Source of the DNA: Pseudomonas serboccidentalis | GTDB lineage: Bacteria > Pseudomonadota > Gammaproteobacteria > Pseudomonadales > Pseudomonadaceae | NCBI RefSeq assembly: GCF_028830055.1 | Contig: NZ_CP101655.1 | Span: 372,001 to 436,000, forward strand | Direction: 5' to 3' | Length of the DNA stretch: 64,000 bases | Shown here: one piece after another, positions 3,601 to 8,183 of the stretch | Layout: each line of letters begins with the position of its first letter | How positions within the stretch are numbered: position 1 is the first letter of the stretch | Program-made: the position numbers and the translations under genes | The notes under the pieces: generated by a model | Database searches by the model: none | What the model saw: the letters and a program-made list of their open reading frames with translations, nothing else | What the model was told of the DNA's origin: nothing

Positions 3601-4552
3601 TCTGCTGCAACGTCAGTGGGCCGAGACCAGCTACCAGATCCAGCGTCTGCGCGACAACGCCGACTGCGCCGAGCAAGAGTTCGACGCGCTGCTGGAAGAA
3701 GACAACCCGGGCCTGAGCGTCAAGCTAAGCTACGACGTCAACCAGGACATCGCCGCGCCTTACATCAAGAAAGGCATCCGCCCACAGGTGGCCGTGCTGC
3801 GTGAGCAGGGCGTCAACGGTCAGGTGGAAATGGCGGCCGCATTCGACCGCGCCGGTTTCAACGCGATCGACGTGCACATGAGCGACATTCTGGCCGGCCG
3901 CGTCGACCTGAACGAGTTCAAAGGTCTGGTGGCGTGCGGTGGTTTCTCCTACGGCGACGTGCTCGGCGCCGGTGAGGGCTGGGCCAAGTCCGCGCTGTTC
4001 AACAGCCGCGCTCGCGATGCCTTCCAGGGCTTCTTCGAACGTAATGACAGCTTCACCCTCGGCGTGTGCAACGGTTGCCAGATGATGTCCAACCTGCACG
4101 AGCTGATCCCGGGCAGTGAGTTCTGGCCGCACTTCGTGCGCAACCGCTCCGAGCAGTTCGAAGCGCGTGTGGCGATGGTGCAGATCCAGGAATCGAACTC
4201 GATCTTCCTGCAGGGTATGGCCGGTTCGCGCATGCCGATCGCCATTGCTCACGGTGAAGGTCATGCCGAATTCTCCAGCGAAGAAGCACTGCTGGAAGCC
4301 GATCTGTCCGGTTGCGTGGCGATGCGTTTCGTCGACAACCACGGCAAGGTCACCGAAGCCTACCCGGCCAACCCGAACGGTTCGCCGCGCGGGATCACCG
4401 GTCTCACCAGCCGTGATGGCCGTGTGACGATCATGATGCCGCACCCGGAGCGTGTGTTCCGCGCCGTGCAGAACTCGTGGCGTTCGGAAGACTGGACCGA
4501 GGACGCTCCTTGGATGCGCATGTTCCGTAATGCGCGCGTCTGGGTGAACTAA
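656..4552 (+). CDS. purL: Phosphoribosylformylglycinamidine synthase (FGAR amidotransferase)
   Basis: This 1298-residue protein is the large single-chain PurL of proteobacteria. It converts FGAR, glutamine and ATP to FGAM, the fourth step of de novo purine synthesis, in the cytoplasm. The N-terminal third includes the linker region with [14 protein letters not shown] near residue 205. The central part carries two AIRS-like ATP-binding halves ([19 protein letters not shown] near 295, then [12 protein letters not shown] near 770). The C-terminal glutaminase domain has the nucleophile in [10 protein letters not shown] near residue 1137 and the His/Glu pair in PHPERVF near 1262. The start at 656 follows a weak GAGG site. 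The length is normal and no frame problem is seen. Confidence 0.98.
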
Positions 4553-5359: not shown

Positions 5360-5520
5360 TGTGGGAGCTGGTTTGCCAGCGATGGCGGCCTGACAGCCGA
5401 CCAATCTCTAGCTGATGCAGTACTCACCTGTAGGAGCTGCCGAAGGCTGCGATCTTTTGATCTTGCCTTTGATTGTGGAAAGCCAAAGTCAAAAGATCGC
5501 AGCCTTCGGCAGCTCCTACA
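5360..5520. repeat. REP singlet plus REPIN (copy A of a duplicated unit)
   Basis: A GTGGGAGCTGGTTTGCCAGC palindrome at 5361-5385 is followed about 45 bases later by a REPIN at 5429-5520: TGTAGGAGCTGCCGAAGGCT, a 30-base middle, and the same REP inverted. The 92 bases 5429-5520 are identical to 6367-6458, and the preceding singlet is similar to the one at 6299, so this is one half of a duplicated unit. Confidence 0.9.
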
Positions 5521-5583
5521 GGGAGATGTTTGTGTTTAAGGGTGTGTGGAATTGCCAGAACCTTCCCACAAGGTTTTCAGGTT

Positions 5584-5860
5584 GTCCGTCGGACGCTCGC
5601 TCTCTAGGCTTTGTCTGTCGCTGCCAATTCAGCGACCGGGCGTGAGATCCCCGGCTATTCATTTGGATACTTGTGCATATCCCTCCATAATCGCTGCCAG
5701 CTTAAACTGTCGCGATTCTCTATGGCGGCTGTGTGCGGGTGGACGAATGTCCTGCCGGGTTTATCCATACCGGTGATCTCACCCCGTACATGGCTGCCAC
5801 CTTTTCTCCGAGTGAGATCGGGAATAAGTGGCTCTCGCACTTATTAGAGGAAGTTGAAAC
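5584..5860 (+). promoter_or_regulatory. Structured 5' leader of the DUF6124 gene, candidate RNA switch
   Basis: The 280 bases before the gene hold nested inverted repeats. A 7-bp hairpin has stems 5617-5623 and 5630-5636. GTGAGATC at 5642-5649 plus CCGG at 5651-5654 pairs with CCGG at 5770-5773 and GATCTCAC at 5775-5782, with one internal mismatch. The same GATCTCAC can instead pair with a second GTGAGATC at 5812-5819. An 8-bp perfect hairpin (5823-5830 with 5838-5845) ends just before the ribosome binding site at 5846-5852. Bases 5758-5768 can pair with 5861-5871, which is the start codon and next codons (9 Watson-Crick and 2 G-U pairs). The start-masking helix can coexist with the second pairing but not, without a pseudoknot, with the first. 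The regulatory role is an inference. Confidence 0.5.
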
Positions 5861-6223
5861 ATGGATAAGCTAATCCCCGATCCACCCCCCGAAACCACCA
5901 CACCACTCGCCGAAGCCATCCGCGCCGAAGACCTCACCAAAAACCGCGAAGCCATCAAACGCGCCCTCGATTTCTACCTCAGCCCCGAACCACAAAAGCC
6001 ACGCCAACCGAGCACGATGTTCCTCGTCCACCCCGGCGTCGACACCGAAAGCCTGCTCGCCCACGCCTACGAATCGTTGGCCTCAGCAAACGCTATGGCC
6101 AGCAATTTCGCCAACGAACTCAACGGCCTGCAACGCAGCACGGCGTTGGCGATCCAGCAAATCGTCATGCTCGCCGAACTGTCGGTAAACCGGGCGCTGG
6201 ACCGGGTTGATCCACGGACCTGA
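5861..6223 (+). CDS. DUF6124 family protein (unknown function)
   Basis: A 120-residue soluble protein with a proline-rich start (MDKLIPDPPPETTTP), a helical middle (NREAIKRALDFYL) and the core SLLAHAYESLASANAMAS near residues 68-85, ending in a helix with MLAELSVNRALD. I recognise the pattern as DUF6124 (older labels DUF3077), a small family that pseudomonads carry in several copies. No catalytic residues, signal peptide or membrane segments are visible. The ribosome site AGAGGAAG at 5846-5853 fits the ATG. The gene is alone, behind an elaborate leader and between two identical REPINs, which suggests an accessory module rather than a housekeeping operon. Confidence 0.8.
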   Translation: MDKLIPDPPPETTTPLAEAIRAEDLTKNREAIKRALDFYLSPEPQKPRQPSTMFLVHPGVDTESLLAHAYESLASANAMASNFANELNGLQRSTALAIQQIVMLAELSVNRALDRVDPRT

Positions 6224-6366: not shown

Positions 6367-6458
6367 TGTAGGAGCTGCCGAAGGCTGCGATCTTTTGATC
6401 TTGCCTTTGATTGTGGAAAGCCAAAGTCAAAAGATCGCAGCCTTCGGCAGCTCCTACA
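6367..6458. repeat. REPIN, identical to 5429-5520 (copy B)
   Basis: All 92 bases match copy A. It lies 10 bases beyond the nagE stop codon on the other strand, so it may also act as a 3' end structure for the nag transcript. Confidence 0.92.
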
Positions 6459-6467
6459 GTGGACGGT

Positions 6468-8183
6468 TCAGACCTTGGCGCTGATTTCACTCCGGTTCAC
6501 CAACGCCTCAATCGCCCCACTCAAACCCGCCGCTTTCTCGCCAATCAACAAATGCCAGACCCCGCCTTCCAACTGACTGACGCCCTGACACCCCAAGTCT
6601 TTCAACCGAGCCTCGGACAAAACTTTGCCGTCCGCCAGTTGCAGACGAATACGGGTCAGGGCGATGCAGTCCAGTTGCAGTACATTCTCGCTACCACCCA
6701 GTGCTGTCAGCCATTGCTGGGCTTGCGGTGCAGTGACCAATGCAGCTTTCGATTCCTCTACGACCACCGCTGGCGCAGCCACCAACGCACGCCCCAACGC
6801 CGGCATCGCCAGGCGAATCTCATCAGCAATGCTGTCGGCCATCGGCCCGACCACCACCTGTAAACTGCCGCCCTTGCCCGGACGCACAACCGCCATCGCA
6901 CCCAGCGCTTTCAGATCGGCATCGGATGCTTTGTTGCGATCCACCATCTCCAGGCGCAGACGGGTCGTGCAGGCGCCGACGGTGACCAGGTTCTCGGCAC
7001 CGCCCAAGGCCTTGATGTACGCAGCCGCACGTTCGTTTTCTGTCAGCACCGATTTCTCGGCAGTGGCTACATCCTCACGCCCCGGCGTCTTCAGATTGAA
7101 ACGACGAATACAGAAATCAAACACCGCGTAATACACCACGGCGTAAGCCAGCCCGACCGGAATCACCAACCAGCCATTGGTCGAGCGTCCCCAGCCCAGC
7201 ACCATGTCGATGAACCCGCCCGAGAAGGTAAAGCCCAGATGGATGTTCAGCGCATTGGTGATCGCCATCGACAACCCGGTCAGCAACGCATGCAGCAGAA
7301 ACAGCAGCGGCGCTAAAAACATGAAGGCGAATTCGATGGGTTCGGTCACGCCGGTGAGGAACGATGTCAGCGCCATCGACAGGAAGATCCCGCCCATGAC
7401 CTTGCGGCGCTCTGGCAGGGCGTTGCGGTACATCGCCAGGCATGCAGCGGGCAGGCCGAAGATCATCATCGGGAACATGCCGGTCATGAACTGGCCGCCC
7501 TTCGGATCGCCGGCGAAGTAGCGCGACAGGTCGCCAGTGACCAGTGCGCCGGTGGTCGGGTCGGTGAAGTTGCCGAACACGAACCACGCCATGTTGTTGA
7601 GGATGTGGTGCAGGCCAGTCACGATCAGCAGGCGGTTGAACACGCCAAAGACGAAGGCACCGAGGCTGCCGCTTTCCATCATCAAGGCGCCGAAGCTGTT
7701 GATGCCGTGCTGGATCGGCGGCCAGATGTAGCCGAACACCACGCCCAGAGCGACCGCGGCAAAACCCGTAACGATCGGCACGAAGCGCCGGCCGCCGAAG
7801 AACGCCAGATACTCCGGCAGCTTGATGTCCTTGAAGCGGTTGTACAGCGCGCCGGCCATCAGGCCGCTGACGATCCCGGCGAGCATGCCCATGTTGATGC
7901 TCGCGTCGAGCACCTTGAGCGTGGAGATCATCACCAGATAACCGATCACCCCGGCCAGACCGGCGGTGCCGTTGTTGTCCTTGGCGAAACCGACGGCGAT
8001 GCCGATGGCGAAAATCATCGCCAGGTTGGCGAAGATCACTTGCCCGGCATCGTGGATGATCGCGATGTTCAGCAGGTCGGTGTCACCCAGACGCAGCAGC
8101 AGGCCGGCAATCGGCAGGATCGCGATTGGCAGCATCAGCGCACGGCCGAGGCGTTGCAGGCCTTCGATGAAGAGTTGATACAT
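6468..8183 (-). CDS. nagE: PTS N-acetylglucosamine transporter, IIC-IIB with a second degenerate IIB domain
   Basis: This 571-residue membrane protein imports and phosphorylates N-acetylglucosamine. Residues 1-365 form the glucose/GlcNAc-family IIC domain with about ten hydrophobic segments and motifs such as ITGLHHILNN-like VTGLHHILNNMAWF near 190 and GVTEPIEFAFMF near 280. A IIB domain follows at about 385-460 with the phosphorylated cysteine in GACTTRLRL. A second IIB-like repeat at about 490-565 (LTALGGSENVLQ) has DCIALTRIRL, where the cysteine is displaced from the TRxR motif, so it probably cannot be phosphorylated in the normal way. It is the last gene of the nag operon, 35 bases after nagF, which supplies IIA, HPr and EI. 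Confidence 0.93.
   Translation of the reverse strand: MYQLFIEGLQRLGRALMLPIAILPIAGLLLRLGDTDLLNIAIIHDAGQVIFANLAMIFAIGIAVGFAKDNNGTAGLAGVIGYLVMISTLKVLDASINMGMLAGIVSGLMAGALYNRFKDIKLPEYLAFFGGRRFVPIVTGFAAVALGVVFGYIWPPIQHGINSFGALMMESGSLGAFVFGVFNRLLIVTGLHHILNNMAWFVFGNFTDPTTGALVTGDLSRYFAGDPKGGQFMTGMFPMMIFGLPAACLAMYRNALPERRKVMGGIFLSMALTSFLTGVTEPIEFAFMFLAPLLFLLHALLTGLSMAITNALNIHLGFTFSGGFIDMVLGWGRSTNGWLVIPVGLAYAVVYYAVFDFCIRRFNLKTPGREDVATAEKSVLTENERAAAYIKALGGAENLVTVGACTTRLRLEMVDRNKASDADLKALGAMAVVRPGKGGSLQVVVGPMADSIADEIRLAMPALGRALVAAPAVVVEESKAALVTAPQAQQWLTALGGSENVLQLDCIALTRIRLQLADGKVLSEARLKDLGCQGVSQLEGGVWHLLIGEKAAGLSGAIEALVNRSEISAKV

Follow-up and report, generated by a model that had tools for sequence, protein, structure and literature searches.

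The leader of the DUF6124 gene in the window (the stretch of 64,000 nucleotides of Pseudomonas serboccidentalis DNA that was analyzed) contains several segments complementary to one another and to the start of the gene, and the question is what kind of RNA they form and what it does to the gene. The original prediction took the leader for a switch with two states, one masking and the other exposing the start codon, and the pairings on which it was built can be read in the sequence. GATCTCAC at 5775-5782 pairs with GTGAGATC at 5642-5649, a pairing extended by CCGG 5651-5654 and CCGG 5770-5773 to 12 pairs with one mismatch, and it is also complementary to a second copy of GTGAGATC at 5812-5819; 5758-5768 (GGTTTATCCAT) and 5861-5871 (ATGGATAAGCT) form 9 Watson-Crick and 2 G-U pairs; and a perfect 8-bp hairpin (5823-5830 with 5838-5845) stands directly before AGAGGAAG (5846-5853). 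Also as predicted, the pairing with the second copy is nested within the start-codon helix, whereas the pairing with the first crosses it. When 5584-5871 was shuffled 4000 times with its dinucleotides preserved, an 8-mer of any sequence with two partners arose in 4 shuffles, a helix of 11 bp with no more than 2 G-U pairs on the last 11 nucleotides in 2, and a perfect 8-bp hairpin (loop 3-10, any position) in 88; the two-partner 8-mer and the start-codon helix are far above chance, and the hairpin, mildly so, is weaker evidence. The complementarity to the start region supports the view that the leader RNA is able to mask the DUF6124 start codon, and in the homologous leaders examined such pairings are maintained through matched changes.

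The proposal that these parts make up an undescribed cis-acting riboswitch was wrong. Rfam gives a C4 antisense RNA at 5718-5804 (E 1e-9) and an a1/b1 element at 5604-5657 (E 4.3e-11), which are the sole matches in the window over the gathering score, and no riboswitch family of Rfam matched; a new riboswitch class was rejected because Rfam accounts for the element. The leader is very probably a C4 antisense-RNA cassette as known from phages P1 and P7, in which GATCTCAC corresponds to a' and the two copies of GTGAGATC to a1 and a2, b' being the segment that masks the start and b2 the region around the start codon (Table 1); in its CCGG extension, the a1 pairing makes use of stem P3 of C4 itself, through the 3' arm. 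With respect to the features that characterize RF01695, the score lies over the curated cut-off, and in the minimum free energy structure of the isolated RNA (5724-5801; −42.4 kcal/mol, z −4.8) b' is in a loop and a' is single-stranded. An a1/b1 element lies upstream, although b1 itself is weak, and downstream lie a2 and b2, with which a' and b' can pair; GG at 5724-5725 sits where the RNase P cut that gives the ∼77-nucleotide RNA is expected. When P1 was scored with the same Rfam models, C4 gave 68.8 bits and c4-a1b1 51.0 bits.

Table 1. Features of the C4-DUF6124 unit (positions in the 64,000-nucleotide window)
Feature	Position	Strand	Remarks
Palindromic repeat, left flank of unit	5429-5521	.	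93 nt
Candidate promoter 1 (TTGTCC 5582-5587, 17 nt, TAGGCT 5605-5610)	5582-5610	+	by eye
c4-a1b1 target element (RF03163)	5604-5657	+	54.8 bits, gathering 46.7; hairpin 5617-5636 inside
a1 (GTGAGATC), complement of a'	5642-5649	+	CCGG 5651-5654 prolongs pairing into P3 arm
b1 (TGGATA), short b' complement	5664-5669	+	−6.6 kcal/mol, weak here, rank 9/23
Candidate promoter 2 (TGGATA, 16 nt, CATAAT)	5664-5691	+	scan 9/12
C4 antisense RNA (RF01695)	5718-5804	+	62.4 bits, gathering 45
Predicted mature C4 RNA, 78 nt	5724-5801	+	ends by analogy with P1 annotation
b' loop of stem P3, putative locus barcode	5759-5769	+	complementarity tests
a' (GATCTCAC)	5775-5782	+	unpaired in C4 fold
a2 (GTGAGATC), a' target	5812-5819	+	−13.3 kcal/mol, rank 1/23
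8-bp hairpin, 7-nt loop, upstream of ribosome-binding site	5823-5845	+	arms 5823-5830 / 5838-5845
Shine-Dalgarno region (AGAGGAAG)	5846-5853	+	by eye
b2, start codon and next codons, b' target	5861-5871	+	−12.7 kcal/mol
DUF6124 gene, 120 aa	5861-6223	+	PF19619, 89.9 bits, cut-off 27
Palindromic repeat, right flank of unit	6367-6459	.	93 nt

Of the two candidate promoters, the first fits the consensus poorly and received no call in the promoter scan, and it shows only small changes across nine orthologous leaders (second box TAGGCT or TAGTCT). The scan called one site, candidate promoter 2, against a mean of 0.4 in shuffles; in ten leaders its second box is CATAAT in six and GATAAT in four, and the first box is lost in the four GATAAT leaders. 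The 8-bp hairpin is shorter or missing in the orthologues (alignment, by eye). The repeats that bracket the unit are 100% identical in sequence comparison, with arms 93% complementary, and we take them to be REPIN-like, possibly REPIN elements; the half-site of the repeat occurs in 16 copies across the window when up to 3 mismatches are allowed. A similarity to Rfam isrK that stays under the cut-off of 50 is seen at 5617-5672 (22.3 bits) and also in a P1 segment (L296 331-412; 35.1 bits), and the c4-a1b1 and isrK families may have a common hairpin design.

In P1 and P7, C4 is processed out of the transcript and acts on a2 and b2 as a separate RNA. The Pseudomonas cassette shares with the immI C4 of these phages the fold, the strand, and the order a1-b1-C4-a2-b2-start (the P1 record is annotated in the order a1, b1, C4 of 77 nucleotides, a2, b2, icd start), and its predicted mature length is 78 nucleotides as against 77 in P1. 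However, the Pseudomonas C4 is chromosomal and present in 23 copies in the window's genome, the target is a lone DUF6124 gene rather than icd-ant, b2 lies on the start codon instead of upstream of it, and the uncut leader is predicted to be bistable, unlike that of P1. The icd and ant genes found downstream of C4 in immI are absent, the downstream gene being DUF6124, and protein comparison detected no similarity between DUF6124 and Icd; the locus therefore contains a C4 RNA but is not an immI operon. The accessible parts of the literature include a summary of the c4 RNA of P1/P7 in a 2025 review (PMC12197685), and both C4 and c4-a1b1 appear in the list of motifs computed by Weinberg 2010 (PMC2864571).

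The window's genome (G000; 5,997,322 bases) contains 23 C4 matches over the cut-off, 20 DUF6124 matches, and 24 c4-a1b1 matches, 12 of them over the cut-off. Two relatives, G036 and G049, contain 41 and 52 C4 matches over the cut-off, and the three genomes together make up a set of 116 loci, from which three sub-cut-off G049 matches were dropped. Within Pseudomonas, with up to 61 candidates scored per genome, C4 matched at E 0.001 in at least 54 of 59 genomes and over the cut-off in at least 53, with 10 or more matches in at least 37, whereas in the rest of the class, with up to 15 candidates scored per genome, it was found in at least 17 of 273 genomes, with 1-6 each among the matches listed; in the genomes sampled and the matches listed, expansion on such a scale was found only in Pseudomonas. 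DUF6124 itself was found in 3 of 244 genomes of the order, every one a Pseudomonas. In the 116-locus set DUF6124 follows C4 within 700 nucleotides at 85 loci, DUF3077 within 1100 nucleotides at 11, and neither at 20, and C4 stands in front of 87 of the 99 DUF6124 matches of the three genomes; the two generally occur as a pair. Among the 20 downstream frames left over, twelve were aligned; with identities of 21-78% to the first one, they appear from their sequences to form a third small family. A profile comparison of this family with DUF6124 gave no link.

Some individual loci deserve mention. At L028 (locus c08) a DUF3077 gene (104.9 bits) has its own C4, with b' on the start codon, and its protein matches phrog_36471, a PHROG of unknown function (E 1.3e-11). 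The gene L045 (G000 2584492-2584686), without a C4, matches both DUF6124 (69.5 bits) and DUF3077 (26.8 bits), a double match that hints at a relationship between the two families. By eye, L046 (G000 near 3824092) is an a1b1 element fused to the tail of a DUF6124-like frame and L047 (G000 near 3350781) an a1b1 element with a truncated C4; these remnants would be signs of the birth and decay of such units.

The predicted structure of the DUF6124 protein consists of three helices (pLDDT 78, pTM 0.46), and the model had no match in the PDB with E under 0.65, so that no function follows from the fold. The protein had no match in PHROGs or PADLOC, and the DUF3077 protein matches two PHROGs, both without an assigned function. 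When phage records were searched with the window's protein, a single one of 50,697 matched (75% of the query length, 47.8% identity), and the plasmid search gave no match. The literature searched yielded no dedicated study of either family, with a single mention, of DUF3077: in its accessible text, the frame of a Pseudomonas putida DUF3077 pseudogene is restored by a single-base insertion in furfural-evolved strains (PMC9630843), which is a possible lead to a phenotype.

The many copies allow each C4 to be compared with its own and with foreign leaders. All pairing energies are two-strand predictions that take no account of accessibility, and loci with broken downstream frames were kept in. 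The target for b' was the segment 24-64 nucleotides after C4, with the coding sequence at 64-104 as a positional control and 5000 permutations. The cognate and foreign means for b' with b2 were −12.6 and −5.4 kcal/mol in G000 (n = 23), −12.9 and −5.8 kcal/mol in G036 (n = 41), and −10.9 and −5.2 kcal/mol in G049 (n = 52), with 0 of 5000 permutations reaching the observed value in each genome, and the control segment gave no signal in any of the three. By b' alone, the locus's own b2 ranked first at 21/23, 30/41, and 30/52 loci, respectively; the G000 tests differ in the cut points of b' and of the target window, and three versions placed the own b2 first at 18, 20, and 21 of the 23 loci, no permutation reaching the cognate mean. 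The b' loops are distinct at 23/23, 40/41, and 52/52 loci, and there are 17, 30, and 38 distinct a' sequences. As a set, a' is also specific for a2 (z −8.5, −13.1, and −15.2), but a' alone was rejected as the barcode, its own a2 ranking first at few loci (4/23, 14/41, and 12/52). Pairing of the C4 3' arm with a conserved box after a2 was likewise rejected, being strong on average but weakly locus-specific (z −2.5, −1.5, and −3.4).

When the a and b energies were summed, the cognate was the best target for 19/23, 38/41, and 42/52 C4 RNAs in G000, G036, and G049. Viewed from the target side, the cognate C4 scored best in 20/23, 34/41, and 33/52 cases, and 7/506, 11/1640, and 72/2652 foreign pairs came within 1 kcal/mol. 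The window's C4 has a cognate sum of −21.4, as against −18.5 for its next-best target, locus 23. With positions taken from the picked start codon, b2 falls in the Shine-Dalgarno region at 90 of the 116 loci, including 7 weak cases, and coincides with the start codon at 5, the window's included, of which at least 2 have a doubtful start pick; it extends beyond the start at 8 and lies elsewhere at 4, and 9 have no picked start. The 8-locus class "SD through start" includes loci whose start picks are probably wrong. By these complementarities, the b' loop looks like a private barcode for each locus.

The same relationship can be followed at a single site. Nine Pseudomonas records (L215, L216, L217, L219, L220, L221, L226, L227, and L233) have the cassette at the same place as the window, between the gene that ends at 4552, presumably purL by reading of its product, and the gene at 6468-8183; L155 and L241 adjoin the same downstream gene, and their examined sequence contains no purL. 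The ten genomes have four barcode forms in three classes, and in the alignment the window's b' pairs with the start codon, whereas the other forms pair with the Shine-Dalgarno region. The mean for b' with b2 is −10.3 within the same class and −6.5 between classes, although the window's b' still reaches −8.7 on five others, in which the start codons are similar. The contrast between classes for b1 (−11.9 versus −9.8) is not clean, and in the class of L217 it is absent. In a wider set of 29 window-like leaders with 17 distinct barcodes, b' gave −10.5 with its own downstream segment as against −7.3 with others (0 of 5000 permutations), and the own target ranked first for 8 of the 17.

The behavior of the uncut leader bears on what remains of the two-state proposal. 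The minimum-energy fold of the full leader in the window lacks C4 and has a cis pairing of b' and b2 in its place. Across the 116 loci, the uncut leader is expected to fold chiefly into the C4 stem at 52 (9/23 in G000, 21/41 in G036, and 22/52 in G049), a1 and b1 pairing with C4 in the leaders without a dominant C4 stem, and this stem is dominant in one (L216) of the nine orthologues. In G000 the C4 fold costs 2.97 kcal/mol with the cognate leader versus 0.78 kcal/mol with foreign ones (18/23 loci, p 7e-4); in G036, where the first 30 loci were used, the values are 2.08 and 0.82 kcal/mol (23/30, p 9e-4). Exchanging the downstream part for a foreign one had no clear effect on the cost (p 0.54 and 0.48). 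Adding the P3 arm strengthens the a1 pairing by 6.6-7.4 kcal/mol and the a2 pairing by 3.1-3.3 kcal/mol. The cost imposed by the cognate leader and the extension of a1 into the P3 arm suggest that a1/b1 may serve as a release in cis in Pseudomonas, as judged from model energies on a long RNA. The two-state idea is sustained in part, in that the a1/b1 leader of the same locus disfavors C4 folding in silico more than foreign leaders do, but the relatives do not support the exchange of a' between a1 and a2 as the core on and off states.

The sequence elements, the fold in silico, the match to Rfam and P1, the controlled locus-specific complementarity, and the matched change of barcode at one site are all observed, and a mechanism can be proposed on the pattern of the phages; transcription, C4 processing, repression, and competition in cis at the DUF6124 locus are steps that we infer. 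A single transcript would begin upstream of a1/b1 and run through C4 into DUF6124, and the C4 segment would fold on itself and be excised as an RNA of ∼78 nucleotides, which would then bind the DUF6124 mRNA leader twice, a' on a2 and b' on b2. Since b2 here consists of the start codon and codons 2-4, ribosome binding would be blocked, and DUF6124 would stay off until C4 runs short; repression of translation is deduced from this position of b2. The a1/b1 element would be a second, upstream partner that holds a' and b' in the uncut transcript and competes with C4 folding, and transcripts from promoter 1 would contain it, whereas those from promoter 2 would not. As the b' loops differ from locus to locus and for the most part fit the b2 of the same locus best, the 23 locks would be largely independent.

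Other readings of the cassette have to be set against this one. The uncut transcript might itself switch between a fold with C4 formed and the start free and another with C4 bound by a1/b1 or b2, any role in trans being secondary or absent. The predicted bistability of the precursor, the greater cost imposed on the C4 fold by its own upstream leader than by foreign ones, and the larger contribution of the P3 arm to the a1 than to the a2 pairing all speak for such a cis switch. However, for an RNA of 280 nucleotides the model error is large enough to cover differences of 1-3 kcal/mol, the C4 fold dominates in the uncut P1 leader (cost 0.2), the alternative predicted for the window is b'-b2 in cis rather than a1-a', the pairing of the C4 3' arm with the box after a2 is weakly locus-specific, and C4 of P1/P7 is known as a separate RNA that is cut out; we regard this reading as rather unlikely.

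That C4 chiefly regulates other genes in trans, with DUF6124 as a passenger, is improbable. The accessible text on the C4-like sRNAs of Acinetobacter baumannii raises the possibility that they have adapted to bacterial targets or to incoming phage (PMC5320573), but among the C4 loci of the three Pseudomonas genomes most C4 RNAs score best on their cognate leader, and C4 is kept ahead of most DUF6124 matches (87/99). More improbable still is a decaying phage remnant with no present function, for which the remnants L046 and L047 (by eye) in the same genome and the broken downstream frames at some loci might be cited; the matched change of barcode at the orthologous site, the intact DUF6124 reading frame in the window, the 10 or more C4 matches in at least 37 of 59 Pseudomonas genomes, and the phage match to the window's protein in 1 of 50,697 records all argue against it.

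A close bacterial precedent comes from A. baumannii, for which the accessible parts of the report describe 21 related C4-like sRNAs (Group 1) in one genome, with RNA-seq backing for cutting at GGW (PMC5320573). The presence of numerous C4-like RNAs in a single genome is common to Group 1 and the window's genome; however, those parts of the report assign no cognate downstream target, whereas a cognate neighbor gene is present at most of the Pseudomonas loci, and they name a' as the variable part that gives specificity, changes in b' also being mentioned, whereas b' is distinct at every locus of the window's genome (PMC5320573). C4 terms were not found in two published A. baumannii interactome studies, and no paper linking C4 to DUF6124 or DUF3077, or describing barcode-specific sets of C4 in Pseudomonas, was found in the literature searched, in which subscription journals are sparsely represented. 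In type I toxin-antitoxin systems a small gene is held off by an antisense RNA of the same locus, in multiple independent copies. The C4-DUF6124 units may be likened to these, by analogy, in their small gene, same-locus antisense RNA, and multiple independent copies, but the C4 antisense RNA is on the same strand, within the leader.

The C4 core is of a known kind, and it is its setting, an expansion of putative antisense locks with private barcodes, that makes it a notable variant. It is possible, though we put it forward tentatively, that in Pseudomonas a phage C4 lock has grown into tens of separate same-strand locks throughout the genome, each with a private b' and its own release, in which a1/b1 would pair with C4 in the uncut transcript and prevent its formation, and each on one small DUF6124/DUF3077-type target, with a role like that of type I toxin-antitoxin or immunity systems. 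If this combined reading of lock and release is true, the cell would have a choice of producing either the lock or the protein. The matched change of barcode at the orthologous site offers a direct way to test whether an RNA lock and its target coevolve. If borne out, the findings would provide 23 (52 in a relative) natural translation locks of the same design per genome, mostly without crosstalk, and with them a natural experiment on the divergence of antisense specificity and a source of orthogonal RNA regulators; they would also give a first handle on the DUF6124 and DUF3077 families and a candidate role for the a1/b1 element.
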